DNA of 64,000 bases, taken from NCBI GenBank assembly GCA_027603945.1, contig JADIIU010000004.1:248001-312000 (forward strand). The letters are read 5' to 3'. Under the pieces are notes generated by a model. That model had not been told where the DNA came from, searched no databases, and saw only the letters and a list, made by a program, of their open reading frames with translations. Positions 697-33,103 of this stretch are shown piece after piece. The position numbers and the translations under genes are program-made. Numbering within the stretch: the first letter of the stretch is position 1; each line of letters starts with the position of its first letter. This DNA is from Terramyces sp. JEL0728 (lineage: Eukaryota > Chytridiomycota > Chytridiomycetes > Rhizophydiales > Terramycetaceae).

Positions 697-1486
697 TTAA
701 TAGCGATCATAGTCTCTTCGCTTGTCATCCCTTCGATCTCTACGATCTCGTCTGTCATCATATCTATCCCTCCTTTCATAATCCCGTTCGCGGTACTCTC
801 TCGGCTTGGACGCTCTGGCAGCTTCTTCTGGTCTGGGATTCAATATTTGGATTGATAGTTTCTGCGCTTGGAATAATTCTCTCTTCAAATCTTTTGTCAC
901 TTGTTTTAAATGCATAAAGTTGCAAAATCCTCCCCTGGTACATTCTGCATTTTCATATTGCCTACAGCATGCTAAATTAGTATTAATCACCTTCATTAAA
1001 ATCAGTGACTGGTGATAATTCGGCATACAGCGGTCTGCCAGCATAGAATCTGGAGTTCAAGGAGTCGCAAGCTTTCCCTGCATCTTCCTCGTACTTGAAT
1101 CTTATATAAACATCTATATGAGCAATACTTACTTCCTACTAGATGATCTCCCACATTATCACATATATTCATTTCTTCAATCTCTCCATATTTCGCCAAC
1201 TCCATAAAAATATCTTCAAAAAACAAATCGAAATCATTTTGCAATTCATAAGGATTCATTCTGCATCCGATTAGATTTCCTGGGTTCTGATATAAATTTG
1301 GCAGTAGCAGCGTTTGTGAAAAGTTTGGTTTTACATGCTTGCGAGAGCACTGGTTAATTAAAAGCTACCTTTTCACCATGACGACAAGCGCCGATTTTGA
1401 AATAAAAGGAACAGTTTACTTTATCCTTTTCTGTGCCGTAGATGGAAGCTAAATGATCTTGAGTTAATAATTTACTTGCCTGCCAT
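697..1486 (-). CDS. U2AF1: U2 snRNP auxiliary factor small subunit (U2AF35)
   Basis: U2AF35 recognises the 3' splice-site AG together with U2AF65. Five exons give 236 aa (human about 240). Introns are 1458-1479 (22 nt, starting GC instead of GT, after a 7-nt first exon), 1350-1368, 1114-1132 and 972-990 (19 nt each). Zinc finger 1 is C-x8-C-x5-C-x3-H at residues 18-37 and zinc finger 2 ([19 protein letters not shown]) is C-x7-C-x5-C-x3-H. Between them lies a UHM-type RRM with [14 protein letters not shown]. The C-terminus is short and rich in R/D/Y ([17 protein letters not shown]) rather than RS dipeptides. The residue equal to human Trp134, the tongue-in-groove contact to U2AF65, is Phe127 here (SRFYAGRP). 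It is divergent from RPS10. The family call is certain; exon 1 is less certain because it needs a GC donor. Confidence 0.93.
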
Positions 1487-1875
1487 TTTGTGATCAGGAA
1501 AAAGAAATTTCAGAAATTCAACTTTAAGATACCCACTAATGAGCCAGCGATAGACTGGAAAGATATTAGCAGCTATGGGACATTAAGGAGTATTCTAGAA
1601 GCAACTAGAATATCAAGTTTTACACCCTGATATTAGCGAATAGACAGGCGCTAATAATTAACTACTGAGGCAAAGAATCTGAGAGATACTTGTGCTGGAG
1701 AAATATTTCAATACTTTGGTTACTTTCACTAGCCACAAATATTTTCCAGCCACAAATCTTGAGTGACATCTGATTGGTCGGAGGCTAAATGCTCCGGGGG
1801 AAAGAGAAAAAAACAAAGATGGATTTTTCGCCTTTCAAGCTCAGCGCTAAATACAAAACAGATTAGTTGCCCAGC
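1487..1875. promoter_or_regulatory. Divergent U2AF1/RPS10 intergenic region with CCAAT box; contains duplication boundary
   Basis: This is the longest non-coding stretch in the window (389 bp), between the U2AF1 ATG (1486, minus) and the RPS10 ATG (1876, plus). An inverted CCAAT box (ATTGG) lies at 1773-1777, about 100 bp upstream of RPS10, a plausible core promoter element. A 10-bp direct repeat AGCCACAAAT occurs at 1731-1740 and about 1748-1757. From 1837 on, the sequence is shared with 33104 onward, so the CCAAT box belongs only to copy A of RPS10. No ORF or RNA gene is apparent. Confidence 0.5.
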
Positions 1876-2350
1876 ATGCTCATTTCAAAAGACAACCGTA
1901 AGCAAATTTATCAATATCTTTTCCAAGAAGGTGTATTAGTCGCCCAAAAGGACTACAATCTTCCATTACACCCTGAAATCAAAGTCCGCAACCTCGAAGT
2001 TATCAAGGCTTTACAATCACTCAACTCCCGTGGATATGTCAAGACTCAATTCTCATGGCAATACTATTACTACACCCTCACTGCTGAAGGAATTGAATAC
2101 CTTCGTGCATACCTTCACTTGCCAGCAGAAATTGTCCCAAGAACCTTCTTGAAGACTGCCAAGGCTGTAGGCTCCCGCCCACAATCTGAAAGACAACCAA
2201 GAGAAGACCGTCCACGCGGTGATGAATACCGTAGACGTGGCGATGGAGAAAAGAAGGTTGGTGCTGGAGCAGATTTCAAACCAGAATTCGTAAGTTACTA
2301 TTAATTAACTCTAGCGCGGCGGAGTTGGTCGTGGAGCACCACGCCAATAA
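1876..2350 (+). CDS. RPS10: 40S ribosomal protein eS10 (copy A)
   Basis: Structural protein of the small ribosomal subunit beak. Two exons (1876-2289 and 2315-2350) give 149 aa; the 25-nt intron 2290-2314 is the longest one found here. The S10/plectin domain fills residues 1-95: [38 protein letters not shown] and [18 protein letters not shown] match the family closely. The tail is basic and ends [11 protein letters not shown] after the intron, the usual Gly/Arg end of eS10. I chose ATG 1876 because the protein then starts MLISKDNRK, like MLMPKKNR in animals; the in-frame TTG upstream is not needed. An AATAAA at 2386-2391 lies just before the convergent CFAP58. Confidence 0.98.
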
Positions 2351-2422
2351 ATTTGTAGTATAGGGTTATATGCTCTTTTTACATCAATAAAACACTAATG
2401 TTTTGGAATTGAATGGAAATAT

Positions 2423-5176
2423 TTATTCAGGTTGAATATCTTCAGGAACCTGTTCTGCCGGCTCTTCCTCTTCTCTGTTGTCATATTCCTCTTCTATTGG
2501 CTCTTCCTCTTCTCTGTTGTCAAATTCCTCTTCTATTGGCTCTTCCTCCTCCTCCTCTGGTATTATTTCACCAAATGGAATTGAGGGCAGTGGAGGCAAA
2601 TTCTTTGGCTCGGAGGCATTTCTCATCTCGTCAACTCTTTCCTTGTACATTTTCAAAAATCTCTTCTTGCAGGCTAATAACCCAGCATCCAACTGGCCAA
2701 TAGTGTATTGGTACTCGTTCACCTGAGCTTTGTACATATTCAATTCTGTGTCCATGTGCCTTAGCTGTTGTTTCTTGTCTTTTAATATCTTCATAAACTC
2801 TGCATACTGTTGCACAGCTTCAGGTCCTGCTTGCTTTGCTAGAATAGTTTTCAAGTGCAAGTATAGTTTTTCCTTTACTTCTATAGCTACATCTTTTTCT
2901 CCCAGTTCCTTGTTCTTGGCAATCAACTTTTTTTGAAGTGTGTGTTGAAGTAGAATTAGGTTATATGCTTGGGGCTGGCTGCCTTCCAATTTTCTCCACC
3001 GGTGTACATTAATTGGGTTTTCCAATTCTTCCTCCAAAGCTTTGATCTTTTTCTGTTCAGAAATAATTATATTTTGCAATTGAATAATCTGCCTCTTCAT
3101 TTGCGGTATTGCTGCAGTTTCGTCGCTCACTTCGGCAACCAAGATTTTATTTGTTACAATTTCTCTGCGAATATTTCTTATAGACTTCATTTTTTCGTTG
3201 TACTGAATTTCTCCTCTTAATAGATTAAGCGATTGTGTCTTCATTTGATCATAAACTTCGGTTAGTTCTTGGTTTCTTCTTAGCAATTGAGAAGATAAAT
3301 TGTCCCTTTCTGCAACTATCAAATTCAAGGCTGTTTGCTGTCTAGTTCTTTCCACGTCAGCCTCTTTGACAAATTGGTCCAGTTTGAATTCTTCAACCAT
3401 CTGTGATTTGATATACGCCATTGCCAGTTCATTTTGGCCTTTCAAAGTCTTGATTTCTTCGCTGATAAGCTCCGAATCTTTTGTTAGCTTGACATAGTCT
3501 GCATTTTCTTTTACTAGCATTGCCTCCTTGGAGTTTACATCCTCTTTGAAGCCGTTAATTTGGAAATTCATTATTTTCAATTTCCTTTTCATTTCATTAA
3601 TTTCTGTTTGAGACTCTATCAATTGCTTTGAATGCAGCTTTCTGTCCGACTGGATTGCTTCATACAAATTCTGCTGGTACTTTAGTTTGTTTTCAGCCTG
3701 GAAAGTTTGCTTTTTGTATTCAAATATTTTCATTTCTTTTTCTTTCATTTCAGCAATGATTGAAATCGCTTGATTGCCATGTTTGTTTGCTTCGGCTAGA
3801 TATGCATCTCGCTCGTCTGCCAAATGTTTCTGGAGTTTATTATTTTCTGCAATATCTTTTAGAATTCTAGCATTTTCTAATTCTATTGTAGCTTTTTGCT
3901 GCTTTTGGAGCTGGAGCAGGGTTTCAATCTTTACTGTCTCTGATTGAGTCTTTTTCAGACAGGATTCCAAGATATCTTTTTCTCTAGCCAAATCGTCAAT
4001 GTTTTTTTTAATAGTGTCGACTTGTCGTCTTATTGCTTCGATTTTAGCAACCAGTTGATCATTTGTAGTGCGATGAACCTTGCGCTCGATCTCTGCTTGA
4101 GTTTTGTGATCTTCCAAGTTTCTAATTTTCTTTACTAACCCTTCCTTGATTCTCACTACCTTTTTAACTTCGGATTTGTGGGATTGAAGTTCTCTTTCTT
4201 TAATTTTCAGTTCAGCGTTGGTAATTTCATTTTCGGCAAGCAATTCTTTTGTTAAAATCATTTGTTCATCATAATCCTGTTGCAACTTGACAGTTCTCGA
4301 ACCTAGCGACTCTTGATCTCTAATCAACTTTTCAATCATGTTCCTTTGTGTTTTAATCTGGCTTTCAATGTTTGCAATTTCTTCTGTCGCACGGTTAACT
4401 GCAGTCTGTTTTGAAATCGCTTCTTGAGATTTAATGGTAACAACGACCCGCAATTCTCTCAGATCTCTTTCCATCCTTTCCTTGTTTTTCATTTCCATAT
4501 CAATCTCCAATTTCTTTTGAGTGTTCTTGTCTTTGAGCAAGTAGATTTCCTTGTCAATACTCTTACGCTCCACTTCTGCGGTGTCAATTCTTTCTGAAAT
4601 AGTCGTCAATCCATTGCGAAGACTGACAATCCTTTCTAATTCGTTTTCAAGGTCTTTGGTGTACTGCTCTTTAGCTGCAATCAGGTCATTAATCACTCGT
4701 TCCTGGCCGGCACTCAGCCCTACACCCTGCTTGATCGTGCTGTTTAAATTGGCAACATCTTGTCTCAATTGGCGGATTTCCATTCTTTCCAACTCTTCCC
4801 TCTTGTTACTCGACTCCAAGAGAGCTTCAGCGCGAATAATCTGAGTCTTTAGTGTTTTCAGCGTTTGAGCATCGTGTCCGAGCTTTGAAGAGTCTACGGC
4901 TTGTTGCTCTACGATATTGATTTCCTTTAAAACGTCTTCGCTCTTTGCTTTGAGCTTCAATGCATTCTTGCTCGACCTCTTGATGACTCTCAGTAGCTTG
5001 GCATACTCTGTCTTAAATTTCTCTAGGTTGTCATCGTCACCGATTTCTTCCAGCATCCCTCCACCTAATTTTTCTTGTTCGGCAGCTCTTGTGGTCCATT
5101 GGTCTAATTGCTCCAGTTTGGAGTTGATTAACGTTGGAAAGTCTGCTATATTTCCCTTTGAAACTGCTGAAGTCAT
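2423..5176 (-). CDS. CFAP58: Cilia- and flagella-associated protein 58 (copy A)
   Basis: Coiled-coil protein of the motile axoneme, needed in animals for sperm flagellum assembly. It is a single exon of 917 aa (human about 870), almost entirely heptad coiled coil. Family signatures include ENPINVHRWRKLEGSQPQAY, QAGPEAVQQYAEFMKILKDK and KKQQLRHMDTELNMYKAQ near the C-terminus and GRVLSAGQ-like SAGQERVINDLIAAKEQYTK near residue 180. I place the start at ATG 5176 (MTSAVSKGNI); an in-frame ATG at 5248 would overlap the stop of the upstream KAS gene (5245). The C-terminal 45 residues are acidic and carry a 13-residue tandem repeat (EPIEEEFDNREEE). The stop codon lies within an AATAAA. This long gene has no intron, whereas CFAP43 has 18. 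Confidence 0.95.
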   Translation of the reverse strand: MTSAVSKGNIADFPTLINSKLEQLDQWTTRAAEQEKLGGGMLEEIGDDDNLEKFKTEYAKLLRVIKRSSKNALKLKAKSEDVLKEINIVEQQAVDSSKLGHDAQTLKTLKTQIIRAEALLESSNKREELERMEIRQLRQDVANLNSTIKQGVGLSAGQERVINDLIAAKEQYTKDLENELERIVSLRNGLTTISERIDTAEVERKSIDKEIYLLKDKNTQKKLEIDMEMKNKERMERDLRELRVVVTIKSQEAISKQTAVNRATEEIANIESQIKTQRNMIEKLIRDQESLGSRTVKLQQDYDEQMILTKELLAENEITNAELKIKERELQSHKSEVKKVVRIKEGLVKKIRNLEDHKTQAEIERKVHRTTNDQLVAKIEAIRRQVDTIKKNIDDLAREKDILESCLKKTQSETVKIETLLQLQKQQKATIELENARILKDIAENNKLQKHLADERDAYLAEANKHGNQAISIIAEMKEKEMKIFEYKKQTFQAENKLKYQQNLYEAIQSDRKLHSKQLIESQTEINEMKRKLKIMNFQINGFKEDVNSKEAMLVKENADYVKLTKDSELISEEIKTLKGQNELAMAYIKSQMVEEFKLDQFVKEADVERTRQQTALNLIVAERDNLSSQLLRRNQELTEVYDQMKTQSLNLLRGEIQYNEKMKSIRNIRREIVTNKILVAEVSDETAAIPQMKRQIIQLQNIIISEQKKIKALEEELENPINVHRWRKLEGSQPQAYNLILLQHTLQKKLIAKNKELGEKDVAIEVKEKLYLHLKTILAKQAGPEAVQQYAEFMKILKDKKQQLRHMDTELNMYKAQVNEYQYTIGQLDAGLLACKKRFLKMYKERVDEMRNASEPKNLPPLPSIPFGEIIPEEEEEEPIEEEFDNREEEEPIEEEYDNREEEEPAEQVPEDIQPE

Positions 5177-5244
5177 CTTATTTTGCAAAAGCTTCGCGAA
5201 ATGAAAAATTGGTATTACATCATTCCAAAATGTATTTACTAAAT

Positions 5245-6581
5245 TCAATGATCAACCCTCTTAAAGCAAAGAGAACAGTTTGTGCCACCAAATCCAAAGC
5301 TATTGGTCAATCCATATTTTAAGCCAGTCCCATCCTTGCTCCTTCTAGGGATGCTTGACACGTCTCTACCAACTTTCGAAACATAGTCCAAAGAGAACTC
5401 ATCTGATTCCAAGTTGTCCAGGTTAATAGTTGGCGGTATTACGCCATGCTTGATGGCCAATATCGTATAGATTGCCTCTACTGCTCCAGCTGCTCCTAGC
5501 AAGTGCCCAATCGCGCCTTTGGTGGATGAAACTGCAATACCATCTCCAAAAATCCCTCTGATCGCTCTAGTTTCAACAAGGTCTCCCAAAGGAGTTGAAG
5601 TCGCGTGTGCGTTGACATAGTCAATCTCTTCTGGCTGCGCGTTTGAATGTGCAATCGCTTTTGTCATTGCTCTAGCTGCCCCAGAACCATCATCAGGAGG
5701 AGATGTGATGTGATGAGCGTCTCCTGAAAGTCCATAGCCAGAGAGTTCACAATAAATCCTTGCTCCTCTTTTGATAGCATGGTTGTATTCTTCCAAGACA
5801 ACCACTCCAGCACCCTCTCCAATTACAAACCCATCCCTATCTCTATCAAACGGTCTAGAAGCCAGTTCTGGGGTATCATTAAAGTTGGTTGAAAGCGCTC
5901 GCAGCTTTGAAAACCCAGCAACCGCCAGTGGAGTTATACTCGCCTCTGAACCGCCAGCAACCATTACATCTGCATCTCCGTACTGGATAAACCTTGATGC
6001 ATCTCCTATTGAATGTGCTCCGGTTGCACATGCAGTTGTAACAGAGTGATTCGGCCCTTTAAATCCGTATTTCATACTAACATGGCCCGCTTAATTAATG
6101 GAAACTACCTGCCATATTCAATAACAGCTTTGGCACCAAGTACGGACTGACCTTCCTTATACCCTTAATTAAAAACAATAAACATTTGCCTCAAAGGCTG
6201 TAAATCCATCGGTGATATCTTGCAGCGAGCCAATTCCTGATCCGATACACACACCGGTCATTTCCTTTTCTAGTTCGGTCGCAGGAGTGTACCCTGCATC
6301 TTTAATTGCCTCATCCGCAGCCAACAGTGCATATTTCATGAACAGCGACAGTAGTTTTTCATCCTTGGTCAACTAGCGCATACTGATTTACTAAAAAATG
6401 ATGCTGTTTGAAAATCCTTGTGAACGAATCCGGCAGCTTTGCTGTTTGTTGGTCCAAACGAGGGAGGAATCTCTGTAATACCACATGAGCCGGCAATTAA
6501 TTTGCTCCAGTTGGACTTTACATTTATTCCCAACGGAGTTACTAAACCCAACCCTGTTACAACGACTCTTCGCCTAGCCAT
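5245..6581 (-). CDS. OXSM: Beta-ketoacyl-ACP synthase II type (FabF/OXSM) (copy A)
   Basis: Condenses malonyl-ACP with acyl-ACP in type II fatty-acid synthesis, which in opisthokonts is mitochondrial and feeds lipoate. Four exons give 425 aa (E. coli FabF about 412). The Cys-His-His triad is visible: C165 in TACATG, H306 in [11 protein letters not shown] and H340 in [14 protein letters not shown]. The glycine-rich end SFGFGGTN is present. Introns 6164-6183 (20 nt) and 6090-6108 (19 nt) are GT-AG. The first, around 6373-6392, must be 20 nt to keep frame, but a GT-AG split there gives only 19, so this junction is non-canonical in both copies. No transit peptide precedes [18 protein letters not shown], so mitochondrial location is inferred from the family only. 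Confidence 0.93.
6373..6392 (-). other. Non-canonical intron of the KAS gene (copy A)
   Basis: Between residues SFF and LTKDEK of the ketoacyl synthase the two conserved frames are offset by two bases, which requires removal of 20 nt (or 17 or 23). The only GT-AG pair spans 19 nt and would cause a frameshift into a stop. Removing AGTAAATCAGTATGCGCTAG exactly restores both frames. Copy B has the same sequence (37640-37659). Confidence 0.6.
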
Positions 6582-6664
6582 TCAAGATTCAAAAAAATCA
6601 AATTATCAACTGCAGTCAATAACCAGTAGATTACGGTAAAAATTATTAGTTATTTATAATAATA

Positions 6665-7371
6665 TTAAGGAAAGTCTAAAATCGAACGGCAATATTCGTA
6701 AACATTGAACTGATGGGCCAACTCTCGCGCTTGTTCCAGGGTAACCCTGTTGTTAGTCCATCCTTACCAGGTTCCTTGATACTTGCCATAACCACCTTGA
6801 ATCTTTTCATGTTTTGTGTTGAGCACTTCTTTCTCTAAAATCTTTGTTCGCCTGCCTTTCTCTATGCCAGCGACCTAAATCAAACAAAAAATACCTTTAG
6901 AAGGTGTGTAGCGTTCACCATCGTATCATCCCGCCTCCGCATAACGGAATTTCCACCAACCATAAGTTCATATACTTCCACCCCAGCATATGTAGCTTCG
7001 AACAGATTAGTACCCGGTGGTGCTAAAGAAGATAGCACCCTTGGAATTGAGGCAGACGGACGTAATTTCTTTGGGGTTTCTTGAACGAGAAGAGCACGTT
7101 TGTTGTAGGCCACAGAAAGGAAATTAGACGGGTGAAAAGGATAATTTACAGGCTGTACGTTTGGAATATTTGCAGGTTGTTCTGGCTCGGGGTTTTCAGG
7201 TGATTTGTTTTCCATATGAGTAACTAATCCAGATGGTTTGTTTAATACTGTTGGATATAGCTCCGGCTGATGTGTTAATAGCGGTAGCAGTAGCTCTTCA
7301 CTGCTGAACTGTACGTGGTAGTTTGAATAAAGCGAGTCCACGTAGATATCTTCGTCTCTAGCGCTGATCAT
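6665..7371 (-). CDS. APSES/KilA-N domain DNA-binding protein, short form (copy A)
   Basis: Sequence-specific regulator of the Mbp1/Swi4/Xbp1 family. Three exons give 221 aa; introns 6875-6894 (20 nt) and 6747-6767 (21 nt). Residues about 1-125 are low-complexity and proline-rich. The APSES domain occupies about 126-221: [59 protein letters not shown] and [19 protein letters not shown]. It stops right after the DNA-binding domain, without the ankyrin repeats and C-terminal coiled coil of Mbp1/Swi4, so it may act as a competitor or bind partners through its N-terminal part. Its ATG overlaps the ATG of the divergent methyltransferase by two bases; a downstream start (M53) is possible. Confidence 0.88.
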
Positions 7372-8281
7372 GGTTGGCGTTTTGGGAAATTTTTTATTTG
7401 AAACAATGGGATTGCTTCCAGGAAGTTTACAAGAGCAGGAATTGAACGCAGCCCATCTTCAGAAATATCCTAAAGGCCCGGAGCAGACGCTGCTGGATGC
7501 TATCCTAGTTTTTGACAGAGTGTTTTCTGACAAGGACTTGAAGGAAAAACGAAAGCAAATCAAGCAGTTTTTCATCAAAAGGGACTTTACATCAATCTTT
7601 ACTGATCCGGTATTACTTCCTATTTACACGGTTGAATACATTCCTGGAAGGGCTTTATGTTATAGAGACATGTTTATGAAAATTGAAGAACTGCGGACAT
7701 ATCTTCAGAATGGACAGGAAATACTAGTCCTTGGAGGAGGAAATGGAGCGGAACTATTGGGAATTGCATCTGCCATGTGCACTTTCACAAACCAGATTAA
7801 TATCACCATACAAGATTTGTCAGATTACAAAATATTACCAACATTGATGGCTTCTATCCAAAACACTTACAATCTGAACAATCTGACTATGGAAAATATC
7901 ATTGGTGATTTAATGAATCCCGACACTGTTCGGCAATACGGAAATAATTTCAAGAACAGCGGGTTGATCACAGCTCTATTTCTCTTGAATGAAATATTGG
8001 CCCTTTCAAAGAAATCCTTTGTACTCCTAATTACAAATCTGGTAAAGTCAATGAAAAGGGGGAGCTTGTTGTTGGTAGTGGATTCCGCTGGATCATTTTC
8101 TGAATTTGAAGTTGCGAATTCAGAAAAATCATACATGCTATTTAAACTATTGGATGCAATTCAAGGGTTCAAAACTCTGGCATCATTTGATTCTGTGTGG
8201 TATCGATACCCGAAGGAAATCACATTTCCTTTGCAATTAAACAACATGCGGTTCTTTCTTCGGCTGTATCAAAAAATATAG
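7370..8281 (+). CDS. BMT6: 25S rRNA (uridine-N3)-methyltransferase, Bmt6-like (copy A)
   Basis: SAM-dependent enzyme of the yeast Bmt6 family (Pfam Methyltransf_34), which methylates a uridine of large-subunit rRNA in the nucleolus. It is a single exon of 303 aa. The SAM-binding motif I is ILVLGGGNGAELLG (residues 118-131). The family end is recognisable: SVWYRYPKEITFPLQLNNMRFFLRLYQK, here continuing from residue about 275. Start ATG 7370 overlaps the start codon of the divergent APSES gene; M13 or later could be the true start, which would free some promoter space. The gene is convergent with an unknown gene 28 bp downstream. Assignment to Bmt6 rather than another Methyltransf_34 member is inference. 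Confidence 0.8.
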   Translation: MVGVLGNFLFETMGLLPGSLQEQELNAAHLQKYPKGPEQTLLDAILVFDRVFSDKDLKEKRKQIKQFFIKRDFTSIFTDPVLLPIYTVEYIPGRALCYRDMFMKIEELRTYLQNGQEILVLGGGNGAELLGIASAMCTFTNQINITIQDLSDYKILPTLMASIQNTYNLNNLTMENIIGDLMNPDTVRQYGNNFKNSGLITALFLLNEILALSKKSFVLLITNLVKSMKRGSLLLVVDSAGSFSEFEVANSEKSYMLFKLLDAIQGFKTLASFDSVWYRYPKEITFPLQLNNMRFFLRLYQKI

Positions 8282-8309
8282 AATTAGCTACAAAAATGTT
8301 CAAATTTAT

Positions 8310-9047
8310 TCAGCAATAAACTGAATCCTGATTATTTCTCTTTCCGTATTCCATCACCCGTTTATAAAAGTTGCTGGCATTTCGTTGTAGCAATTTGGCT
8401 CCACCTCCCTTTCGATAATCTAAATCACAGTCCATTTCTTTTAGATGATGGAGTAGCTCTGACGGACCCGGTCGTATTCCTCGGTTAGAGAGACTTTCAA
8501 AGTAGTTCCAGGCAGTTTGTAGTTGGAATAATTCGCCCTGGTGAGGAACAAGTATTAATTCGGTGCGGTGACTCTTTCCAGGGCGAATTTGATATCTTTG
8601 AGACAACTCGCCAGCAATGTGGGAGGTGTGTCTTTTTCCATCGGCCAGAATTGCTGCGAACCGAGTCCCATAGGGAGAGTAGCGAGATATTCCATGTCTA
8701 ATTTCAAATTGCGATCTTTTGGGTGCCATTTCTGCAACAATACCATACATTGGTGGTCGATGTTCTGTTTCAGCAAGCACACATTCAGCCAGTAAATCTA
8801 GCCCAGAGGCATATTTGAATATCTCTTTTTCTGGGTATGATTGCAGTTTCTGGTCAAAATCACAAAGCACAGTAACAGATGATTCGGCTGGGTCACTATG
8901 TTCAGTGTATGAGAATTCTTGATCTATCGATTCATATTTAACCTCCGATTCTGGAATAGTTTGACAGGAATCTTGCGATATCAAGGTAGCAGTAGATAGG
9001 CTCGATTCAAACAAACGTCCAGGAGCTCCAATACCTGCCAATTCCAT
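8310..9047 (-). CDS. Uncharacterised protein, 245 aa (copy A)
   Basis: I do not recognise this protein. A single exon runs from ATG 9047 to the stop at 8310 and the product is identical in both repeat copies, which argues for a real, constrained gene. Residues 1-80 are Ser/Glu/Asp-rich and probably disordered. Residues 95-245 look folded: HRPPMYGIVAEMAPKRSQFE, ISRYSPYGTRFAAILADGKRH, RPGKSHRTELILVPHQGELF, then a helical basic C-terminus (GGGAKLLQRNASNFYKRVMEY). There is no signal peptide or membrane segment. An in-frame TTG at 9101 would add 18 residues but is not a normal start. It is divergent from the small gene at 9423 across 375 bp. Confidence 0.7.
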   Translation of the reverse strand: MELAGIGAPGRLFESSLSTATLISQDSCQTIPESEVKYESIDQEFSYTEHSDPAESSVTVLCDFDQKLQSYPEKEIFKYASGLDLLAECVLAETEHRPPMYGIVAEMAPKRSQFEIRHGISRYSPYGTRFAAILADGKRHTSHIAGELSQRYQIRPGKSHRTELILVPHQGELFQLQTAWNYFESLSNRGIRPGPSELLHHLKEMDCDLDYRKGGGAKLLQRNASNFYKRVMEYGKRNNQDSVYC

Positions 9048-9422
9048 GGGAAACAACTGCAAATGAAGTTTCTGCTTTAAATAATGTCTAGGAGACGTCA
9101 ATTATACGTCACCGAAAATCTACTATGCAAAATGACATTTAACAATGAATGTATTAAAAACTAGTGTGTAGACATTCCATTAATAATATTCACCGACAAT
9201 ATCTAGATTACTAAAAGACGTCTGAATAAACAAACTCTGAGGAACTCTGGTTTCCCATGGAATGGTAGTTGAATCAAGTTCCTACCGTGTTATAGATGCT
9301 CTCAACACATCTTCAAAATCCGTATTTGTATGCAAGCCAAATTGGGACAGTCTTGTGATTGAACTATGCTTTGTTTGTTTTTTTGTACATCAATACGCGT
9401 CAAACTTGGAGTTGACTTTATA
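9048..9422. promoter_or_regulatory. Divergent intergenic region with CRE-like and MluI-box motifs (copy A)
   Basis: 375 bp without a gene, long for this genome. Near the 9047 start lie two ACGTCA elements in the segment 9091-9115 (CRE/ATF-like). An ACGCGT (MluI cell-cycle box, the Mbp1-type APSES target) sits at 9395-9400, 22 bp before the ATG at 9423. Several 1-nt indels separate this from copy B (40315-40688), including in a T-run, but ACGCGT and ACGTCA are kept. No other structure was seen. Confidence 0.4.
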
Positions 9423-9716: not shown

Positions 9717-9720
9717 AAGA

Positions 9721-10574: not shown

Positions 10575-10661
10575 TCGAGACTTTGCTAACAAGAAACCCT
10601 TTCTTGCAACCAGAGGATTTATATGACTATCCCAACATACAAAAGTAATATAATTTATTTT

Positions 10662-24326: not shown

Positions 24327-24493
24327 GAAAAAAAAAAGTCAAAATTGCAGCAGAGACTTGATTCAATCACGGTAGAAATTAAAAGTTGCCGATTGGAATT
24401 CATCTTGGTTGGATTCGGATTTGTGCTGTACCTATAGCTGCAACACACCAAATTAGTAGTTCATAAAAAACTGTTTTATTCACGAAAGGCAAA

Positions 24494-25408: not shown

Positions 25409-25630
25409 TTTAAAGATAAAGAGTTTGAAGCGCGACTGGGCAATTGTTTGTTTACGAGCGCTCCTGTCAACACCACATGCAAGAATTAAATTCCACAGTC
25501 GTAGCGTTAGATTATTATTAAAAATGATAAAGTTTTGTCTCTATCAACCAAGTGACTTGTTTTTCGTTTTGATTGTTATTAACAAGGATCTTGACAACTA
25601 TTGTTTGTCCAAAAAATCGCGTTTTTATAA

Positions 25631-26346
25631 ATGACTACCGTCTCATCCAACGAAAAGTTCAAAATAATCACCGCAAACGAACTATCAGATAGCAAAGGCA
25701 ATCTTGCTGAAGGTAATCTACTTTTTAAGCAGATGACAAAGAAATAAACGCAATAATCGATCAAAGCAGAAGATTGAGCGACGCTAATGCCACCAAAATG
25801 CAAGAAAAGCTTCAAAGAGCCGAGAAAACATTAGAAGGAAGCAAAAAGTCCAGCTTGAGCAGTGGTAATCTAAACTCAGCATCAGCACGAGCAAATATAT
25901 TGTCTGGGATGCTAGGAAAGAGAAACTCGGGATCTTTAACAGAACTGGATGAAAAAATGGATAGAGCAGAAAAATATCTCTCATCGGGAAAGAGAAGTGA
26001 TGGAGGGAAAGTTGCCAGTCATCAGAGATTGAATGTAATCAACACTGTTTTGGGGATTCCAGACAACAGCCCTGAATCGGCACCGCTAATGAGTCCTGAT
26101 ATAGAAAACAAACTCAGCAGGGCTGAAAAGATCTGCAATGCGTCTCAAGCACCTCCTGTAATCGAAAGAAGGAACTCAAAGCACAGTGTTTTGCACTCTG
26201 TCTTTAGTGGTGACAAGGATCCTGAAGTACAGTCCGTAGATAGCCATTATGAAAGAGCAAGCAAAATCAAGCCAAAGAAAGAAACAAAAGAAGATTCTCA
26301 CAAATCTCAAAATAGGGTTGTAATGAAAAATATTATTGGGAAATGA
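25631..26346 (+). CDS. Uncharacterised protein with RAEK repeats, 231 aa (copy A)
   Basis: Two exons (25631-25712, 25733-26346) around a 20-nt intron give 231 aa. The protein has a repeating unit of about 50 residues ending in a short helix with KLxRAEKxx: EKLQRAEKTL, EKMDRAEKYL, NKLSRAEKIC and a degenerate SHYERASKIK. Each unit is preceded by a hydrophobic segment such as ANILSGMLGKR, NVINTVLGIPD or SVLHSVFSGDK, and an unpaired VVMKNIIGK ends the protein. Linkers are Ser-rich and probably phosphorylated. I know no family with this pattern. The 5' end (MTTVSSNEKFKIITANELSD) is not repetitive. Copy B differs conservatively, for example MERAEK for MDRAEK. Convergent with NDUFAF7, 38 bp away. 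Confidence 0.7.
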
Positions 26347-26384
26347 CCAACAATAAAAATACACAGTTATCCTTTATGATTAAA

Positions 26385-27703
26385 TTACGACAAGAAAAAA
26401 GAAACATTTTCGTAGTATTGCAGCATTGGGTTATCGCCTGAGCGCGTCGTTGTGGATGGTAAATCTCCATATCTGCGAAGGAACTCTGCGTGCTTCAAAA
26501 TGGTGCCATCCTTCTTGTTTACTTGCTTGTACACACTCTTGATTAAATTAAAGTCAGTGGGGAAAAAGATATCAAAATATCCAGGCTGGACAAGATAGTC
26601 GCTGCAAGCAACCATTTCGTCTTTATGTCTGATTTGCACGACTGGTGCATTTACTCCTTCTATTGTGTCAGGAAGAGAGTCAAAATCAGAAATAATCAGT
26701 TTGTGCTTTGGAAAGTAGTCTCTGAGATTTTTCATGAGCTGGAAAGCATTTGTTGGGACAAACTCTCTTCTTGATAAATTTGCTTTGTATGGATTCATAT
26801 AATCGACTGCTCTACTCTTCCAATTTAAAACTGGCGTTTGATATCCAGTCGTGTTCCTAACCTCCAAATACTCCTTCAGCAATGGATCAGATAGAGGAAT
26901 ATATCCCTCCTTGTAGTCTCCAGTTTCATCAATTTCCACGATACCCTGCAGCGGATCTTCTCTATCATACCTAATGACGTCGTGGGACAGATTATCCTAT
27001 TCTTAGGGAAAATTACCAGTACTTCCATAGCGATAAAGAAGCAAGCCTTTGGCTGTAAATCATTGAATTCCAAGAAGGATTTGTTTAATACGTTAACAGA
27101 ATGCGGCGATTGCTGTTGAATCTGAGCCAATTTGCCAGATATTTCTATGATAGTGTATTTGGTCGACTGGTATATATCTGGATGATTATTTTCGATAAAA
27201 GTCATAATGTCATTCATCAGCGTTCCGTTTCCTGCTCCAGCTTCGTATATCAACAGTTCTGATTCTTTGCTTTGTACAAATTCCTGGATGATGTACTTGG
27301 CGAGCGCATATCCGTACCAAGGCTAATATTAATCCAAACCCACCTTGAATATTTCGGATGGAGTGTGCCAAATTTGATCATTTCCGTATTCTGCATATAG
27401 TTTCCCCAAATGTAAAAAGAAATCATTATTGTCTCTGACTTTCTTGAAGTCTATTGGGGAATCCGAAAATACTTTTGCTTCCTTTGAAAAATATCCATAC
27501 TTTGGATGATACAGAGAGTTATGAATGAACTCTCTGGCACTCATCCTGACTTGGGTGGGCATTTCGGATAACTGGGCTGCTTGTTTTCCAGTAATAAAAT
27601 TGAAGCTATTGACTGCATCCGGCATCCCCTCTTTTTTCCTTTCCTGCCTTGCCAGTACATCCCAATATGAAATCCGGCGAAGATGCACTTTTATTTTGTT
27701 CAT
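26385..27703 (-). CDS. NDUFAF7: NDUFAF7/MidA, complex I assembly arginine methyltransferase (copy A)
   Basis: Mitochondrial enzyme that dimethylates an arginine of NDUFS2 during complex I assembly. Three exons give 425 aa (human about 441); introns are 27322-27342 (21 nt) and 26997-27016 (20 nt; 21 in copy B). The N-terminus MNKIKVHLRRISYWDVLARQ is basic and amphipathic, as for a matrix presequence, and it excludes the in-frame start at 27733. Family motifs: SAREFIHNSLYHPKYGYFSK, SEIFKPWYGYALAKYIIQEF, SAM-binding IYEAGAGNGTLMNDI and EVLDNLSHDVIRYDRED. It is divergent from POLE2; the two ATGs are 59 bp apart. Confidence 0.95.
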
Positions 27704-27762
27704 TTGAGAAATTTTCACCAAAAAAACTTGCAAAAACTTTATTGAATTCGGACATCCAGATT

Positions 27763-29377
27763 ATGACACAGTTGGCACCTCTGATTTACAAAGTACTTAC
27801 CAGAAAGTATGGGTACAAAGTTACGATGCCTGCTATCCAGTTTCTCCAGAGCTTTGTGGAAGACCAACAAGTAGATCAGGAAAACTTTTTATATTTACTG
27901 GATGAAATTTCCAAAGAGTACCAGGGCAATATCATAGAAAAAGCACAATTGGAATTGGTTGTTGCAGATATATTAAAAAAGAATTCAGAGTCTTCAGGTG
28001 ATGAGCAATTTCAGCAATTGCAAAAATATCTCTCAATTGTGGATTTGTTTGCCCTGCCAAAGTATGTTTATTATCCTCAAAAGGATCAATTTGCCTTGGA
28101 AAATTCTGATAAACAATTCCTCAGTAAAGTGCAAGACAAGTCTCTAGAATATAGAAATCGATATGAGGTGATCAAACAAAGAATTCTACGGAACGAAGCT
28201 TTTTTGAAACCAACATTTTCTGCAGACTTGAATTCGTACTACAAGATCACGCCAATTATTCATTTGAAGGGAAAGCCGCCAGGTAAATATCTGTTATTTG
28301 GATTGTTATGTGAAATTCAAGAAGGGAAATTGTTTATAGAAGATTCAGATTGCTATATAGAAATTACACTTGGTGCAAATCTACAATTGGGCAATGGTAT
28401 ATTCACCAGAGGCTGTTTTGTATTGGCTGAGGGCGACTACACTGTAAACGGAGTATTTATTGTGGAGACTTTGGCGATGCCTCAGCCAGAAACAAGAAGG
28501 AAAACTCTGACAAATATCCCCCTCAGTAAAGACTTTTTTGGCGGTCATCATGTTGACCCTAATGACCATTTGCTGTCAGAAGTTGAAAAAGCAGAAGTAT
28601 CGTTTGTGATCTTATCAGATGTCTGGCTTGATAACCATCTTGTAAATAATTCTAATAGTAGACTTTGGAGAAACTAGATGTGTTGTTCAGAGGCTATTCC
28701 GAAGCGGTTATACCTTTCATGTTTATATTTATTGGTAATTTCCAATCTACCAGCTATGTTCATAGTGCTTCTGCGGCTGCTAGTTATCGAGAAAACTTTG
28801 ATCAATTAGCGAATATTATTTCCAAATACCCGCAGATATCTCAGCAGTCTCGTTTCATTTTCATTCCCGGACCAAATGATCCATATTGTAACGTTTATCC
28901 AAAGCCACCAATTCCAGGCCAATTTTGCAAGAAATTGTTGTCCAAGGTAAAGAACGTCACTTTGGCGAGCAATCCATGCAGAATCAAGTATGCCAAACAG
29001 GATATTGTAATTTTCCGCGAAGATATAATGAACCTCATGTTAAGAAACTCTGTAATACCAGTAGAAGGAGACAACATTGACAAATATGTAGACAAAGATT
29101 AATACGTAGTTAATTTCGACTGTTCTTGACCAAGGTTTTTTGCTACCACTTCCGATGGATGTCAAACCAGTAATACTTTCGCACTATCAATCACTAATGC
29201 TGTATCCTATGCCAGATTTGGTAACTGCCGTTAACTTAGTTGATATTGGCTGACAAATTTGAGAGTTATCAACATGAATATGAAGAATGCAAAGTTGTGA
29301 ATCCAGGCTCGTTCCCAAATAGCCAGTTCCAATTCACTGTGTATCAGCCGGCACTAGGGTTAATTGAACCAAGGTAG
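27763..29377 (+). CDS. POLE2: DNA polymerase epsilon subunit B (Dpb2) (copy A)
   Basis: Non-catalytic second subunit of the leading-strand replicase; it links Pol epsilon to the CMG helicase through GINS. Four exons give 517 aa (human 527); introns are 28642-28661 (20 nt), 29088-29109 (22) and 29221-29239 (19). ATG 27763 (MTQLAPLIYKVLTRKYGYKV) matches the yeast Dpb2 start (LRPLAYRVLSRKYG); in-frame ATG 27667 would run into the divergent NDUFAF7 start. The OB fold (LLFGLLCEIQEGKLFIEDSD, FVLAEGDYTVNGVFIVETL) is followed by the inactive calcineurin-like domain (FVILSDVWLDNHL, FIFIGNFQS, FIFIPGPNDPYCN, NPCRIKYAKQDIVIFRED, YPMPDLLILADKFE). Confidence 0.96.
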
Positions 29378-29468
29378 CAAAGATCTAACGCTAGTATTCT
29401 ATACTGAAAAACATTTTTTGATCGAATCTGATTATACTGTTATCATTAGTTTATTATCTTTAAATACA

Positions 29469-29655
29469 TTAACTCCTCAGTGATTTAGTAACACATTTCT
29501 TGAAGGCTTCAAATTCGGATTTGCAAGAATCTCTTTGTACTTCACTGAAATACTTGTTTACGCAAGCCCCGTAAGCAATGGCCTTTGTTAATAATCATTA
29601 CCGTATGGCTGCAAGAGGCGACTGACTTTGATAATTTTTGTATTCCTTTTCCCAT
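29469..29655 (-). CDS. NDUFAF8: NDUFAF8-like twin CX9C complex I assembly factor (copy A)
   Basis: A 55-aa protein in two exons around a 19-nt intron (29583-29601). The cysteines form a perfect twin CX9C motif, C15-x9-C25 and C38-x9-C48, but only after splicing, because the intron lies inside the first pair. YGACVNKYF and SCKSEFEAFKKCV match NDUFAF8 (AYGRCVQ..., FCAREFEALRSCF), which stabilises NDUFAF5 in the mitochondrial matrix/intermembrane-space pathway for complex I. Another small CHCH protein cannot be excluded at this length. The ATG is 11 bp from the divergent ATG10-like gene. NDUFAF7 lies 2 kb away. Confidence 0.82.
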
Positions 29656-29666
29656 CCTAAATTCAA

Positions 29667-30014
29667 ATGCAAAATTGGGAAAAGAAAAGAGGATTTCTAG
29701 AAAAAAGAGTAGAAACATTTGATACTCATATTCTGGTTTGGGACGTTCATATCGTAGAGTCTGATATATGGAAATGTCCAGTTTTGTTCTTCAGGATTCA
29801 AGATCAGTCTGGATCACCAGTAAATCCATATACTATTAGAGATATTGAATTCATTTCCCAATCGGAGCACCCGATACTAGGCACGCCGTTCTACTTCATC
29901 CATCCTTGCCAGAGTAATACACTGATGAATGAATTAAAAGTCGATCCTGCTGATAGCCTAATGTTTCTGGGAAGCTTATGGCAGAACATTCTGGGATTAA
30001 AGTTGCTTGACTGA
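29667..30014 (+). CDS. ATG10: ATG10-like E2 enzyme for ATG12 conjugation (copy A)
   Basis: Single exon, 115 aa. Residues 20-85 fit the core of the autophagy E2 ATG10, which transfers ATG12 to ATG5: HILVWDVHIVESDIWKCPVLFFRIQD, then HPILGTPFYFIHPCQSNTLM, where C81 in the HPC motif is the thioester cysteine. SLMFLGSLWQNILG resembles the conserved helix after it. It is shorter than yeast (167 aa) and human (220 aa) proteins because the N-terminal helix is minimal. There is no room for an upstream exon: the divergent NDUFAF8 ATG is 11 bp away. Copy B changes DIWKCP to DIWECP. Confidence 0.85.
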   Translation: MQNWEKKRGFLEKRVETFDTHILVWDVHIVESDIWKCPVLFFRIQDQSGSPVNPYTIRDIEFISQSEHPILGTPFYFIHPCQSNTLMNELKVDPADSLMFLGSLWQNILGLKLLD

Positions 30015-30081
30015 CCCAAGCGTGGTAGAATCGGCAGTATTGGCTGGTGCTCAAAAGTCTCCTTTTTTTGGAACTTGCAAA

Positions 30082-30259
30082 ATGTCCAACCTGATGAAAT
30101 TCTTTGCAAAGGTATTTCAATAGTAACCAGATATCAATCGGAAGCATACTGGGATTGGGAATAGGAGTAGGGATACATGAATTTACCTCAAAGCAGCCAG
30201 TAGCCAAGCAGGACCAAATATCCAAAGAAGAAATACTACAGAGCATGGCAAATAAATAA
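30082..30259 (+). CDS. Small single-span membrane protein, 52 aa (copy A)
   Basis: Two exons around a 19-nt intron (30112-30130) give 52 aa. MSNLMKFFAK is followed by a glycine-zipper-like transmembrane stretch (ISIGSILGLGIGVGIHEF, residues 11-28) and a polar, charged tail. The short basic N-terminus, single helix and tail resemble small inner-mitochondrial-membrane proteins such as STMP1, but similarity is too low to name it. It is conserved in copy B although the flanking 67 bp carry indels, which supports it as a gene. It ends AATAAATAA, so the stop overlaps a poly(A) signal. Too short for ordinary gene callers. Confidence 0.6.
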
Positions 30260-30315
30260 TTTTATTATTATATACTAATTTCTGGGCAATGTGTTGATGG
30301 AATGATGGCTACTAT

Positions 30316-30923
30316 TCAGAACCATCGCAGAACACCAAAGAATACATTGATAACGATTCCCGATATAATGCCCTGCTGCTGCCGTCTTGAAAATATATTT
30401 CCTTCCTTTAACCAGAAAATAATGATAATTCCTGCAAAGTATCCAAGGACTAAACCCAATAATAAATCCACCTGAGATCCGGTAATTTCTGTTGTATCAT
30501 TGCCAGCGTTTTCTATCCACTGCTCCTCCGCCTGTGCTGCCAAGTTTGGCGATTCTAGTATGTTTACTCCTCTCAAAGTATGAAATTGATTTCGTAATTC
30601 AAGGACCTCATTTTCTTCCAAACCTAAATAAATGATTACTAACCCATTTCAAGCAATCTATCAAATCCTACCCTCCTTACATCCTGTTCGTCTCCAGAAA
30701 GATTGCCCTCCTCTTCAGATACACTACAGTGTAACACGGTATCCTGAGAAAGTATCGTTGAATTATCAAGAATCTTTCCCCTCTGTATAATTCGTAAAAA
30801 CTTGTTCTGCATTTCCGGATACTGATTTATAATGATATCTTTGAGGTTTTTAATTGATATTTCCTTTGTTTCAATCAAAAAATCCTCTCTCGCATCGACA
30901 AATCGCACTGTGATTTTTTGCAT
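30316..30923 (-). CDS. DSC3: DSC3-like ubiquitin-domain membrane protein (copy A)
   Basis: Two exons around a 20-nt intron (30624-30643) give 195 aa. Residues 1-70 form a ubiquitin-like fold (ITVRFVDAREDFLIETKEIS, LKDIIINQYPEMQNKFLRII, QRGKILDNSTIL). The linker carries the fungal Dsc3 signature GFDRLLEMGLEENEVLELRNQF. Two membrane spans follow at about 145-165 (VDLLLGLVLGYFAGIIIIFWL) and 178-194. Dsc3 is a subunit of the Golgi/ER Dsc E3 ligase that activates SREBP and disposes of membrane proteins; animal TMUB proteins are relatives. The start is 11 bp from the divergent CCDC77 ATG. Confidence 0.85.
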
Positions 30924-30934
30924 TTCAAACTTTT

Positions 30935-32361
30935 ATGTCACCGTTACAGGAAGAACTAATAAATTATTACAAGCAACGGCTAGGTCTGATCTACTAATAA
31001 CCAGAGTTTGCCGAGATTGAATATCAGTCTGCGCTGGATTCTATTCAGGAGCTAAAGATTTCACATGAAGAAACACACAAGTAACTTTAACTAAATCTAG
31101 GTTATCGTGGGAAGTATTCAAGAGAACCAAGGAGGGTAGATAGTAATAACACAGTATATTCGCTGCAACAGGCACTTGGAGATTTTCAAGCGGCAGTATT
31201 TGAAGAACGCAAACATACTTTGGCTATCGTGGCAGAAAATGATGCCTTGAAAAGTACAACTGGCTAACAAAAGTCCAGGAGTTGAAAGACAGGAAAAAAA
31301 TTAGATTTCTGCTATCGCTGTCTGGCTCTCCTGAGGAAGAAGTGACTTATTTCAGGGATAGATACTTTTTGCTTAATATAGGTTGGATAAGAGACTTGTA
31401 AAGATTAGCAGAACCCAACAAGGGCCTAGACTGGAGGAACAGGATTTGATAATCTTGGAAGACGAAGCTGAAGGCTTGAAATTGACTATCTCTTCATTGC
31501 AAACACAACTGGAAGAACAAGTAATTTACACATAACTTTGAACACTACCTATGAGGAGGCGATTGCCGGGTTAATGAAAGAGAGACGGTTACGGGAAGAC
31601 GAGGAAAAAGCACGGAGAGATTTTGAAGAAGAAAAGATTGAATCACTCACAAAGAAGCTGGCCCAAATGAGGTTGCTGTGCCGGGAAAATACAAAAGAAC
31701 TGCTGCGTACAAAGAAAATGTCGCATAGAAACGAAAAAAGTTTGATTGAAGAAAAGTCAATGCTTGTAAATGAAATTAAGAAGCTGAACAATCTGCTGAA
31801 CAAAGAAAAAGTGAAAAACGATAATCAGGAAAAGGTATTTGTGGAATAACAAGAACATTGGAGATCGTATTTCCAAAGAACAGCAACAATTGACAAATGA
31901 ACTGAACGATAAAGTTCACAAGTTGCAGCAAAATGTGCGCAAAGTTAATGTAAGCAGATTTAACTCAGAATGACTATGAAGATTACCGTAGTGTAACAGA
32001 AAAAAAATTGGAATATTTCAAAAGTAAAGTGGACGCTGCAAATCAAAAGTACCGATTCTTTAATCTAGCTACATGGCGCTGAAGAGGAGAAGAGATTATG
32101 AAATTGAAGGGTTTACCAGTGATATTGTAAATCTTCGACAGCAACTGCGAACACTTGAAAAAAGCATTTTGAAATATGGAGCCCTAGAGGATAAAGAGCT
32201 TATTCTTTTGAATATCGGTAATTTTTCCTAACCTACAGCTCGTTTGACAGGCGAAAAAGCTGGTAAAATCTCTCAACACCTCCAAGATATCAAAGTATAA
32301 ACTGCTAATATAGGCTAAAGTATATAAAACGGAGCAAGCTGTTCAATTACTAGAAATTTGA
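30935..32361 (+). CDS. CCDC77: CCDC77, centrosome/basal-body coiled-coil protein (copy A)
   Basis: Twelve exons with 11 introns of 19-21 nt sum to 403 codons, giving 402 aa (human 488). Matches to CCDC77: LINYYKQRLEFAEIEYQSAL, HKLSWEVFKRTKEVYSLQQA, DRKKIRFLLSLSGSPEEEVT, NYMALKRRRDYEIEGFTSDI, AKVYKTEQAVQLLE at the C-terminus. The protein is coiled coil throughout and localises to centrioles in animals. Intron 5 (31362-31381) is AT-AG, and intron 6 (31521-31540) ends TG here but AG in copy B, so correct splicing of copy A is in doubt; a cryptic AG 15 bp downstream keeps frame. The last intron hides a premature TAA. Confidence 0.9.
31362..31381 (+). other. AT-AG 20-nt intron in CCDC77 (copy A)
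   Basis: The intron ATACTTTTTGCTTAATATAG lies between TYFRD and LDKRLVK. No GT occurs in position to act as donor, yet removing exactly 20 nt restores the conserved frame and the total is divisible by three. Copy B (62630-62649) keeps the AT start and has CCTTAAT before the end. Confidence 0.65.
31521..31540 (+). other. CCDC77 intron 6 with mutated acceptor (GT-TG) in copy A
   Basis: Copy A reads GTAATTTACACATAACTTTG where copy B (62789-62808) reads the same but ends CTTAG. Flanking exons are otherwise intact. The next AG in copy A gives a 35-nt intron that stays in frame and drops five residues. Confidence 0.75.
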
Positions 32362-32450
32362 CTATAATAAAAGGAGTCGATTCCATTGTTTTCCACCGCA
32401 TTGTGTGTTGAGACAATCCACGTAATAGCAAGGAATAATCTTTAATAAAA

Positions 32451-33103
32451 ATGGGCGGTGGTGCTTCGAAGCAATCTATGGCAATGGCAAACGAATCTTC
32501 AGACTCGCTTGTCAATAAATTTTTGGCAGCTAAAGTTAGAAACCCTGACAATCTTATGGCAAAGCATTTCTCTGAAGAGTACTACAACTCACTCAACGAG
32601 TCTGAAAAAGCCCGGCTGTTAAAGATTTGCAAAAGTGGTGGAGATAACCCAGACTCTTCATTGGGGATGTATGCCCAACAACCTGACGACTATGACGTAT
32701 TTGCTGTATATTTTGACAAGGTTATTCGAGAATACCATAAAATAACTACTGATGGTACTCATGTTAACAACTGGGATATGTCAACGAGGCAAGCAAAATT
32801 GGAAGCAATGGGGTGTGTCGAAGGCAAGTTGGATTTGGCATCACTAGGCTTGGAAAAAACCAGCATGCGCGTAAGAGTTGGTAGAAATCTCAGTTCATTC
32901 CCGCTTCCTGGATCCATGACAAAGAATGATAGAATCAAGATGGAAGAAAAGATGGCAAACGCATTTAAATCTTTGATTGCCGATGAAAGATATGGCGGCA
33001 ACTACTACTCCTTGACCCCATCAAGTCCTTTTCACATTGGCAAAGAAAAGTACCAAGAGTTGGTTAAGGAACACATCATGTTCAAAGATATGTCAGCCGA
33101 CAC
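32451..33103 (+). pseudogene. Phosphagen kinase, 3'-truncated at the repeat junction (copy A)
   Basis: ATP:guanido phosphotransferase (arginine/taurocyamine/creatine kinase family). The visible 217 codons cover the N-terminal domain (LMAKHFSEEYYNSL, QQPDDYDVFAVYFDKVIREY) and the first part of the catalytic domain (MRVRVGRNLSSFPLPGSMTK, NYYSLTPSSPFHIGKEKYQE). The sequence breaks after MSADT and runs into RPS10 5' flank, which adds 34 unrelated codons before a stop. The catalytic CPTNLGT cysteine region and the rest of the ATP site are missing, so this copy cannot be active. MGGGASK is an N-myristoylation motif, as in membrane-bound flagellar phosphagen kinases. It lies 89 bp behind CCDC77. Confidence 0.88.

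Follow-up and report, generated by a model that had tools for sequence, protein, structure and literature searches.

How small can a spliceosomal intron be, and are segments of about 20 nucleotides (nt) such introns? The question is raised by a 64,000-nt stretch of DNA (contig JADIIU010000004.1, positions 248,001 to 312,000; hereafter the window) from the flagellated chytrid Terramyces sp. JEL0728, a member of the Terramycetaceae (Rhizophydiales, Chytridiomycota) whose assembly totals 15.0 Mb. Chytrid genomes of this type reportedly come from Amses et al. 2022. Genes of the window, U2AF1, CFAP43, CYFIP and POLE2 among them, are interrupted by segments that mostly measure 19-22 nt. These are almost certainly spliceosomal introns of the ordinary U2 type that have been reduced to a minimal length throughout the part of the genome sampled.

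The window contains U2AF1 and two units of a head-to-tail repeat with a period of 31,267 bp, namely copy A (1836..33102) and copy B (33103..64000). The units are 98.9% identical, and copy B extends 370 bp beyond the window (L037:1-370). A first-pass annotation, prepared from the letters and their open reading frames, had placed about 85 introns in U2AF1 and copy A. The coordinates of both stand, and the parses described below yield 82-89 introns.

Protein-guided splicing

Protein-to-DNA spliced alignments were calculated for CYFIP (17142..21117, plus strand), CFAP43 (10662..15879, minus strand) and POLE2 (plus strand) with an aligner that gave lengths of 10-200 nt equal treatment, permitted GT-AG ends only and contained no motif. 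The guiding homologues, with identities of 35-53%, were chosen by hand: five of 15 matches for CYFIP, one of 88 for CFAP43 and six of 101 for POLE2. The alignments place 41 sites, 20 in CYFIP, 18 in CFAP43 and three in POLE2, and 38 of these are 19-22 nt in length (37 if the majority form is taken at one CYFIP site). The others measure 17 nt, which is doubtful, 23 nt, and 49 nt, which looks misplaced; a 22-nt intron from the automatic model fits there. Eight decoy dinucleotide pairs scored lower in every comparison, and with them 0-5 of 13-19 CYFIP introns fell at 18-23 nt.

All five homologues of CYFIP agree on the introns at 17370..17389 (20 nt), 17468..17489 (22 nt), 18006..18024 (19 nt), 18127..18146 (20 nt), 18491..18510 (20 nt), 18580..18599 (20 nt), 18812..18831 (20 nt), 18911..18931 (21 nt), 19193..19213 (21 nt), 19385..19406 (22 nt), 19602..19620 (19 nt), 19741..19760 (20 nt), 20055..20074 (20 nt), 20219..20239 (21 nt, with one additional nucleotide in copy B), 20479..20499 (21 nt) and 20871..20891 (21 nt). 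At 18911..18931 the deposited protein of Boothiomyces sp. JEL0866 carries a seven-residue insertion. The intron at 18366..18385 is 20 nt long according to two of the five homologues and 26 nt (18360-18385) according to three, and that at 20328..20347 is 20 nt by four and 32 nt by one. Two 21-nt introns, 19095..19115 (two of five homologues) and 20552..20572 (three of five), are kept in the deposited Terramyces protein as the residues SNLSIKL and GKNGLNP, respectively. The first-pass annotation had counted 18 introns in CYFIP rather than 20, since a 21-nt intron that contains no stop can readily pass for coding sequence.

Its count of 18 for CFAP43 is matched by 18 calls, of which the 17-nt one is doubtful and the 49-nt one apparently misplaced. 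Unless stated otherwise, these sites were placed with a single homologue (P0018). In the order of transcription on the minus strand they lie at 15826..15844 (19 nt), 15480..15499 (20 nt), 15193..15214 (22 nt in the automatic model, with which the spliced coding sequence stays open; the homologue-guided call is the one of 49 nt), 14844..14864 (21 nt), 14650..14669 (20 nt), 14334..14355 (22 nt; 16 nt in the automatic model), 14151..14171 (21 nt), 14007..14026 (20 nt), 13923..13942 (20 nt), 13773..13795 (23 nt), 13310..13328 (19 nt; one nucleotide longer in copy B), 12867..12886 (20 nt), 12463..12482 (20 nt), 12309..12328 (20 nt), 11880..11899 (20 nt), 11186..11205 (20 nt), 11008..11024 (the doubtful 17-nt call) and 10823..10842 (20 nt). 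Neither the 16-nt nor the 17-nt call was accepted as a shorter class of intron: the homologue makes the former site 22 nt, and at the latter the donor GT is GC in copy B and the Boothiomyces protein has residues.

In POLE2, all six homologues support introns at 28642..28661 (20 nt), 29088..29109 (22 nt) and 29221..29239 (19 nt). U2AF1 itself, which encodes the small U2AF subunit that reads the 3' AG (697..1486, minus strand), yields a protein of 236 residues after removal of four introns. The first (1458..1479, 22 nt) is of the GC-AG type, and its removal restores an 18-residue stretch of the protein; those at 1350..1368, 1114..1132 and 972..990 are each 19 nt.

The first-pass annotation had described conserved family blocks as joining perfectly. 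The alignment of U2AF1 residues 1-190 with the 23-kDa subunit of U2AF (PDB 4yh8) contains two gaps, each of one residue. In the automatic models, Pfam domains run unbroken across the joins in CYFIP, POLE2, the β-ketoacyl synthase (5245..6581, minus strand; introns of 19, 20 and 20 nt; PF00109 and PF02801 each intact), NDUFAF7 (26385..27625, minus strand; 20 and 21 nt; PF02636 in one stretch) and RNase Z (22126..24326, minus strand; calls of 20, 21, 22 and 26 nt, the last from the automatic model alone). A further claim, that gene lengths minus introns are exact multiples of three, holds for CYFIP (1188 residues) and for CFAP43, the model of which includes the doubtful 17-nt intron, and both frames are open to the last codon. 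For POLE2, removal of the three homologue-backed introns leads to a stop 11 codons short of the end of the model.

Length distribution

A gene finder based on codon usage, which required GT-AG ends, gave equal weight to lengths of 10-200 nt and contained no motif, was applied to 233 kb, or 1.6% of the assembly, comprising window positions 1-33102 and the first 200,000 positions of another contig (C1:1-200000). Of 195 introns called, 84 are 19-22 nt long, whereas nine decoy dinucleotide pairs gave 3-12 of 152-180 in that range. The share is 71/152 on C1 and 13/43 in the window part. Outside of 17-24 nt there are 102 calls versus 143-168 for the decoys, and thus no excess of longer introns. The main peak above 40 nt named as a refuting alternative is not seen in the 233 kb, and the pattern extends to the other contig.

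The same sample was parsed with trained profiles for donor, branch and acceptor (5.5, 5.0 and 4.3 bits of information, respectively), built from introns of up to 30 nt and with the branch profile seeded by a YTNAY-like pattern. With lengths of 10-300 nt weighted equally, this parse called 277 introns of 19-22 nt versus two for a base-complemented profile of equal composition. Longer calls were fewer than those of this decoy, 24 versus 51 at 27-60 nt and 60 versus 129 above 60 nt. Addition of a length prior raised the number at 19-22 nt to 394, a figure that includes false calls given that the decoy then reached 58. Scaled from 277-394 per 233 kb to 15.0 Mb, these counts suggest some 18,000-25,000 such introns genome-wide, in an assembly that contains allelic-looking duplicates.

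Within positions 1-33102, the trained motifs with flat lengths gave 82 introns, 58 of them at 19-22 nt, and the length prior gave 89, with 83 in that range; another parse found 87 in genes starting before 33,200, 79 of them at 19-22 nt. Calls of 16, 17, 23, 25 and 26 nt persist in small numbers, and the earlier description of all introns as 19-25 nt somewhat overstates the case. Under the length prior, 142 predicted genes with coding sequences of at least 450 nt contain 407 introns in 188 kb of coding sequence, or 2.2 per kb; 112 of the genes bear introns and 30 are intron-free. In that parse, an in-frame stop is present in 77 of 90 introns whose length is a multiple of three and in 189 of 314 others. 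No conclusion as to selection for such stops was drawn, the parser being biased in the same direction and missing the stopless CYFIP introns.

Anatomy of the introns

Although the codon-only parser required none of the motifs named here, 75 of its 84 introns of 19-22 nt start with GTA and 62 end with TAG. The pentamer YTRAY, with its A located 5-7 nt before the last G, occurs in 53 of the 84. When the intron interiors were shuffled 1,000 times, this placement turned up in 5.0 introns on average and in 14 at most. The interpretation given in the first-pass annotation, of dense spliceosomal introns of ∼20 nt with a TAAY-type branch motif and too little space for a polypyrimidine tract, is supported by the codon-only parse, protein-guided splicing, the decoys and the comparison of the two copies.

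A clear branch motif is present in 257 of the 277 introns of the flat-length trained model, and the remaining 20 were excluded from the counts that follow. The branch A lies at position 14-15 in 217 of the 257, and in 222 it is followed by the last G at a distance of 5-6 nt, such that mostly 3-4 nt separate it from the AG. Introns of 19 nt are mostly 14 + 5, those of 20 nt are 14 + 6 or 15 + 5, and those of 21 nt are mostly 15 + 6. The terminal AG is the first one past the branch in 246 introns, whereas in 85 an AG occurs before the branch, and a 3' site chosen by scanning from the branch would fit this arrangement. The introns are 70% A+T.

Comparison of the two copies

The two copies differ by substitutions at 0.90% of exon positions, 1.84% of intron positions and 0.99% of positions between genes, and the changed codons comprise 191 synonymous and 48 nonsynonymous cases. 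On the basis of the refined models, the introns contain four indels in 1,785 bases, each of 1 nt, and the exons two in 26,808 bases (p = 2e-4). Were these segments translated, a 1-nt difference within them would break the frame. Both exon indels are TT insertions in copy B, at 30039 and 30059, within one predicted gene (29667-30259) whose frame they disturb; an earlier parse had additionally put one 3-nt deletion in an exon. The GT, the +3 base and the AG are changed at one of 430 positions, inside the misparsed 16-nt call, whereas elsewhere in the introns 21 of 839 differ (p = 0.002).

Similar divergence is observed between other duplicates of the assembly (98.9% identity for C199/C111 and 99.2% for C30/C33), and for this reason the 31,267-bp repeat may represent two diploid haplotypes placed end to end during assembly and not a genuine tandem duplication.

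Spliceosomal components and a proposed mechanism

The lengths of the introns, the motif, its position and the conservation of the splice-site dinucleotides between the copies are plain from these data. They suggest an intron built as a two-part ruler, the first part running from the GTA at the 5' end to a YTRAY with its A at position 14-15 and the second from there to the first AG 5-6 nt on, the two adding up to 19-22 nt. In such an arrangement the branch motif would pair with U2 small nuclear RNA, the AG would be read directly by U2AF1 in the absence of a polypyrimidine tract, and the whole intron would be recognised as a single unit. Branching would then produce a loop of ∼14-15 nt and a tail of 5-6 nt, and the second step would still be served by Slu7 and Prp18.

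The components examined are in keeping with a normal machinery. The U2 small nuclear RNA was found with a score of 140 bits, and its branch-recognition box, GUAGUA, is intact. U2AF1 is likewise intact, with both zinc fingers and the RRM closely related to those of the U2AF 23-kDa subunit. Genes for Prp18, Slu7 and Isy1 are present in the genome. Work in yeast has indicated that a short distance between branch and AG may make Slu7 and Prp18 dispensable; their loss from Terramyces is refuted by the presence of both genes. Cwc25 starts with MGGGDLNLKKSWHP, residues that match exactly those of the CWC25 homolog in PDB 5yzg (presumably the human protein). The glycine plug of the Terramyces protein is kept, and loss of the plug would therefore be unnecessary for a loop of 14-15 nt. 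The start of the Isy1 gene (L042) contains several candidate introns spaced only a few nucleotides apart. They can be parsed as three introns that fit the consensus (20, 20 and 21 nt) with exons of 1 and 3 nt between them, or alternatively with a single exon of 22 nt.

The same introns could be recognised by way of a short-intron helper such as SPF45/RBM17, which, according to the accessible part of PMC8363638, serves a subset of human short introns in place of the U2AF heterodimer. The lack of space for a polypyrimidine tract, with mostly 3-4 nt between the branch A and the AG, would be in accord with such a helper, whereas the intact U2AF1, so close to the 23-kDa subunit over its zinc fingers and RRM, argues against it. 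We consider this route unlikely but not negligible.

Weighing of the evidence

Several observations count against the reading of these segments as minimised U2-type introns. The introns are known here from DNA alone. The branch motif is changed between the copies at 8 of 430 positions versus 21 of 839 other intron positions and so is not significantly more conserved; six of the eight changes are C/T or A/G exchanges where the motif is degenerate, and the branch A is untouched. Branch positions from the trained model depend on its seed, as the profile was started from a YTNAY-like pattern, and the codon-only parse provides the unseeded check. Among the 91 codon-only calls longer than 24 nt, 22 carry a well-placed YTRAY, 42 start with GTA and 43 end with TAG; some of these calls therefore use real splice sites, and may either reflect misparses in which a short exon flanked by two real introns was missed or represent a small class of longer introns. 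Depletion of decoy introns in exons is not specific to 19-22 nt and shows no length ruler. It was rejected as proof of one, the ratios being 0.47-0.80 at all length classes and the test partly circular because the parser itself removes decoys. Finally, U1 was not found in the genome with RF00003, a search that matched in no control genome either, and U6 was not found with RF00026 or with three core patterns. These results may reflect limits of the searches, gaps in the assembly or introns inside U6, and no absence is claimed. Two U6 candidates (L030 and L031, 27 bits) were rejected, as they have no AGC triad and lie in 98.9%-identical 3.1-kb stretches of two contigs. The three matches to the core patterns were likewise rejected, having no U6-like sequence after them.

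Given the allelic-looking duplicates in the assembly, and a few calls (16, 17, 26, 32, 39 and 49 nt) that are artefactual or unsettled, the short segments might be assembly indels or errors of gene modelling in a genome with normal introns. The introns are, however, common to both copies, with four 1-nt indels inside them, the same sites are reached independently through homologues with 35-53% identity, and decoys yield at least as many longer introns. This explanation is accordingly very improbable. Still less credible is the idea that the segments are not spliced and that ribosomes bypass them or read through them by frameshifting. Such events would be compatible with segments seen as yet in DNA only, but they would be needed at hundreds of sites, in an organism with spliceosome parts, and they do not account for GT-AG boundaries with YTRAY at a fixed distance, for which the complement decoy gave two cases versus 277. 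Removal of the segments from a somatic genome, in the manner of the internal eliminated sequences of ciliates, is suggested by their short uniform length, the ciliate sequences having a minimum of ∼26-28 nt, and can be dismissed for practical purposes, since the organism is a fungus and the segments have GT-AG ends and a branch motif.

Deposited proteins of Terramyces and Boothiomyces

The deposited Terramyces proteins align without gaps at 31 of the 41 protein-guided sites (15 of 20 in CYFIP, 15 of 18 in CFAP43 and one of three in POLE2). The deposited annotation thus already includes many of these introns. It also omits exons and, as noted above, keeps two 21-nt CYFIP introns as seven-residue insertions. 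At matching sites, the Boothiomyces sp. JEL0866 proteins contain the insertions QVNFQIKI and VRSCLTK in CYFIP and SIIALTL in CFAP43. In size and terminal residues these would correspond to introns left unspliced, of 24, 21 and 21 nt, respectively. The Boothiomyces proteins suggest that ultra-short introns may be common to the family Terramycetaceae. Such introns expose an annotation problem, in that at several of the ten sites without a gap-free alignment the deposited Terramyces proteins skip exons or retain 21-nt introns.

Relationship to known ultra-short introns

The first-pass annotation had ranked these introns among the shortest spliceosomal populations, citing Stentor and the Bigelowiella nucleomorph. 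That ranking is supported, and the mikrocytids, left unmentioned there, must be added. The excerpts available of the reports cited below provide the basis for comparison.

Macronuclear introns of Stentor coeruleus are 15-16 nt long, with 8,806 annotated in 18% of genes, and a changed Cwc25 plug and Isy1 N-terminus have been proposed to help fit a 10-nt loop (PMC9505925). Stentor and Terramyces share a uniform tiny length, GT-AG ends with a conserved GTA, AU-rich sequence and a branch A close to the 3' end, 5 nt from it in Stentor. They differ in that Stentor is described with a loop of 10-11 nt, a weak branch consensus and a Cwc25 without the GGG motif, whereas Terramyces has a predicted loop of 14-15 nt, a clear YTRAY and a Cwc25 that keeps MGGGDLNLKKSWHP. 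In addition, the 18% of Stentor genes with introns contrasts with predicted introns in 112 of 142 Terramyces genes with coding sequences of at least 450 nt.

Introns of chlorarachniophyte nucleomorphs are mostly 18-24 nt and number ∼950-1,010 in genomes of 0.37-0.61 Mb (PMC4035089). The length range is nearly equal to that in Terramyces, and in both the introns are dense and GT-AG with rare GC-AG. Nucleomorphs, however, are relic endosymbiont genomes, whereas the 15.0-Mb genome of Terramyces is nuclear and by extrapolation holds many thousands of introns. Those of Mikrocytos mackini and Paramikrocytos are 16-17 nt, and for M. mackini, a parasite, 224 introns are predicted and only 17-19 spliceosomal proteins have been identified (PMC10245619). 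The mikrocytid introns are likewise nuclear, uniform, conserved and tiny; unlike these organisms, as portrayed there, Terramyces keeps the late factors tested, namely Slu7, Prp18, Cwc25 and Isy1. Trichomonas has introns down to 23 nt (PMC12316389).

With other fungi Terramyces shares U2-type introns and an intron-rich chytrid ancestry, and in the portion available of a survey of 644 fungal genomes the example given of relatively short introns is Cryptococcus, with a mean of 63 bp (PMC8476143). No description of ultra-short chytrid introns appeared among the matches listed in the open-licence literature, searched at the level of titles and the starts of abstracts, and the available parts of four accounts of chytrid or fungal genomes (PMC13391722, PMC5364385, PMC7466969 and PMC11797018) are silent on such introns. 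Terramyces joins the known class of ultra-short introns as, in the literature examined, its first case in a fungus.

A fungus is thereby added to the short list of ciliates, relic algal nuclei and mikrocytid parasites with introns of ∼15-25 nt. Terramyces is neither a ciliate nor reduced in the splicing factors tested, and the case is informative because the machinery looks normal where examined. It provides a different type of organism for exploring the lower size limit of spliceosomal introns. Terramycetaceae chytrids can be cultured, and in a culturable chytrid both the minimum intron size and lariat geometry would become open to experiment. To a fuller proposal we assign about an even chance: that in the free-living Terramycetaceae (Terramyces, Boothiomyces) an intron-rich genome has been turned into one with ∼18,000-25,000 near-uniform introns of ∼20 nt, set by two fixed rulers and handled with normal late factors and the Cwc25 plug, such that tiny lariats would need none of the active-site changes proposed for Stentor.

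Other features of the window

At the repeat junction (32451-33617), the start of a phosphagen kinase is fused to an eS10 gene that lacks its own start. The eS10 gene is intact in the left copy, and the frame of the right-copy kinase continues through its first unit into the second. A gene at 9423-10648, predicted to contain six introns of 20-22 nt, encodes a Dam methyltransferase domain of phage type (PF05869; PHROG 111); it may have been acquired or stem from a transposon, with introns of this length gained afterwards. A protein with a KilA-N domain is encoded at 6665-7215, and its gene contains introns of 21 and 20 nt.

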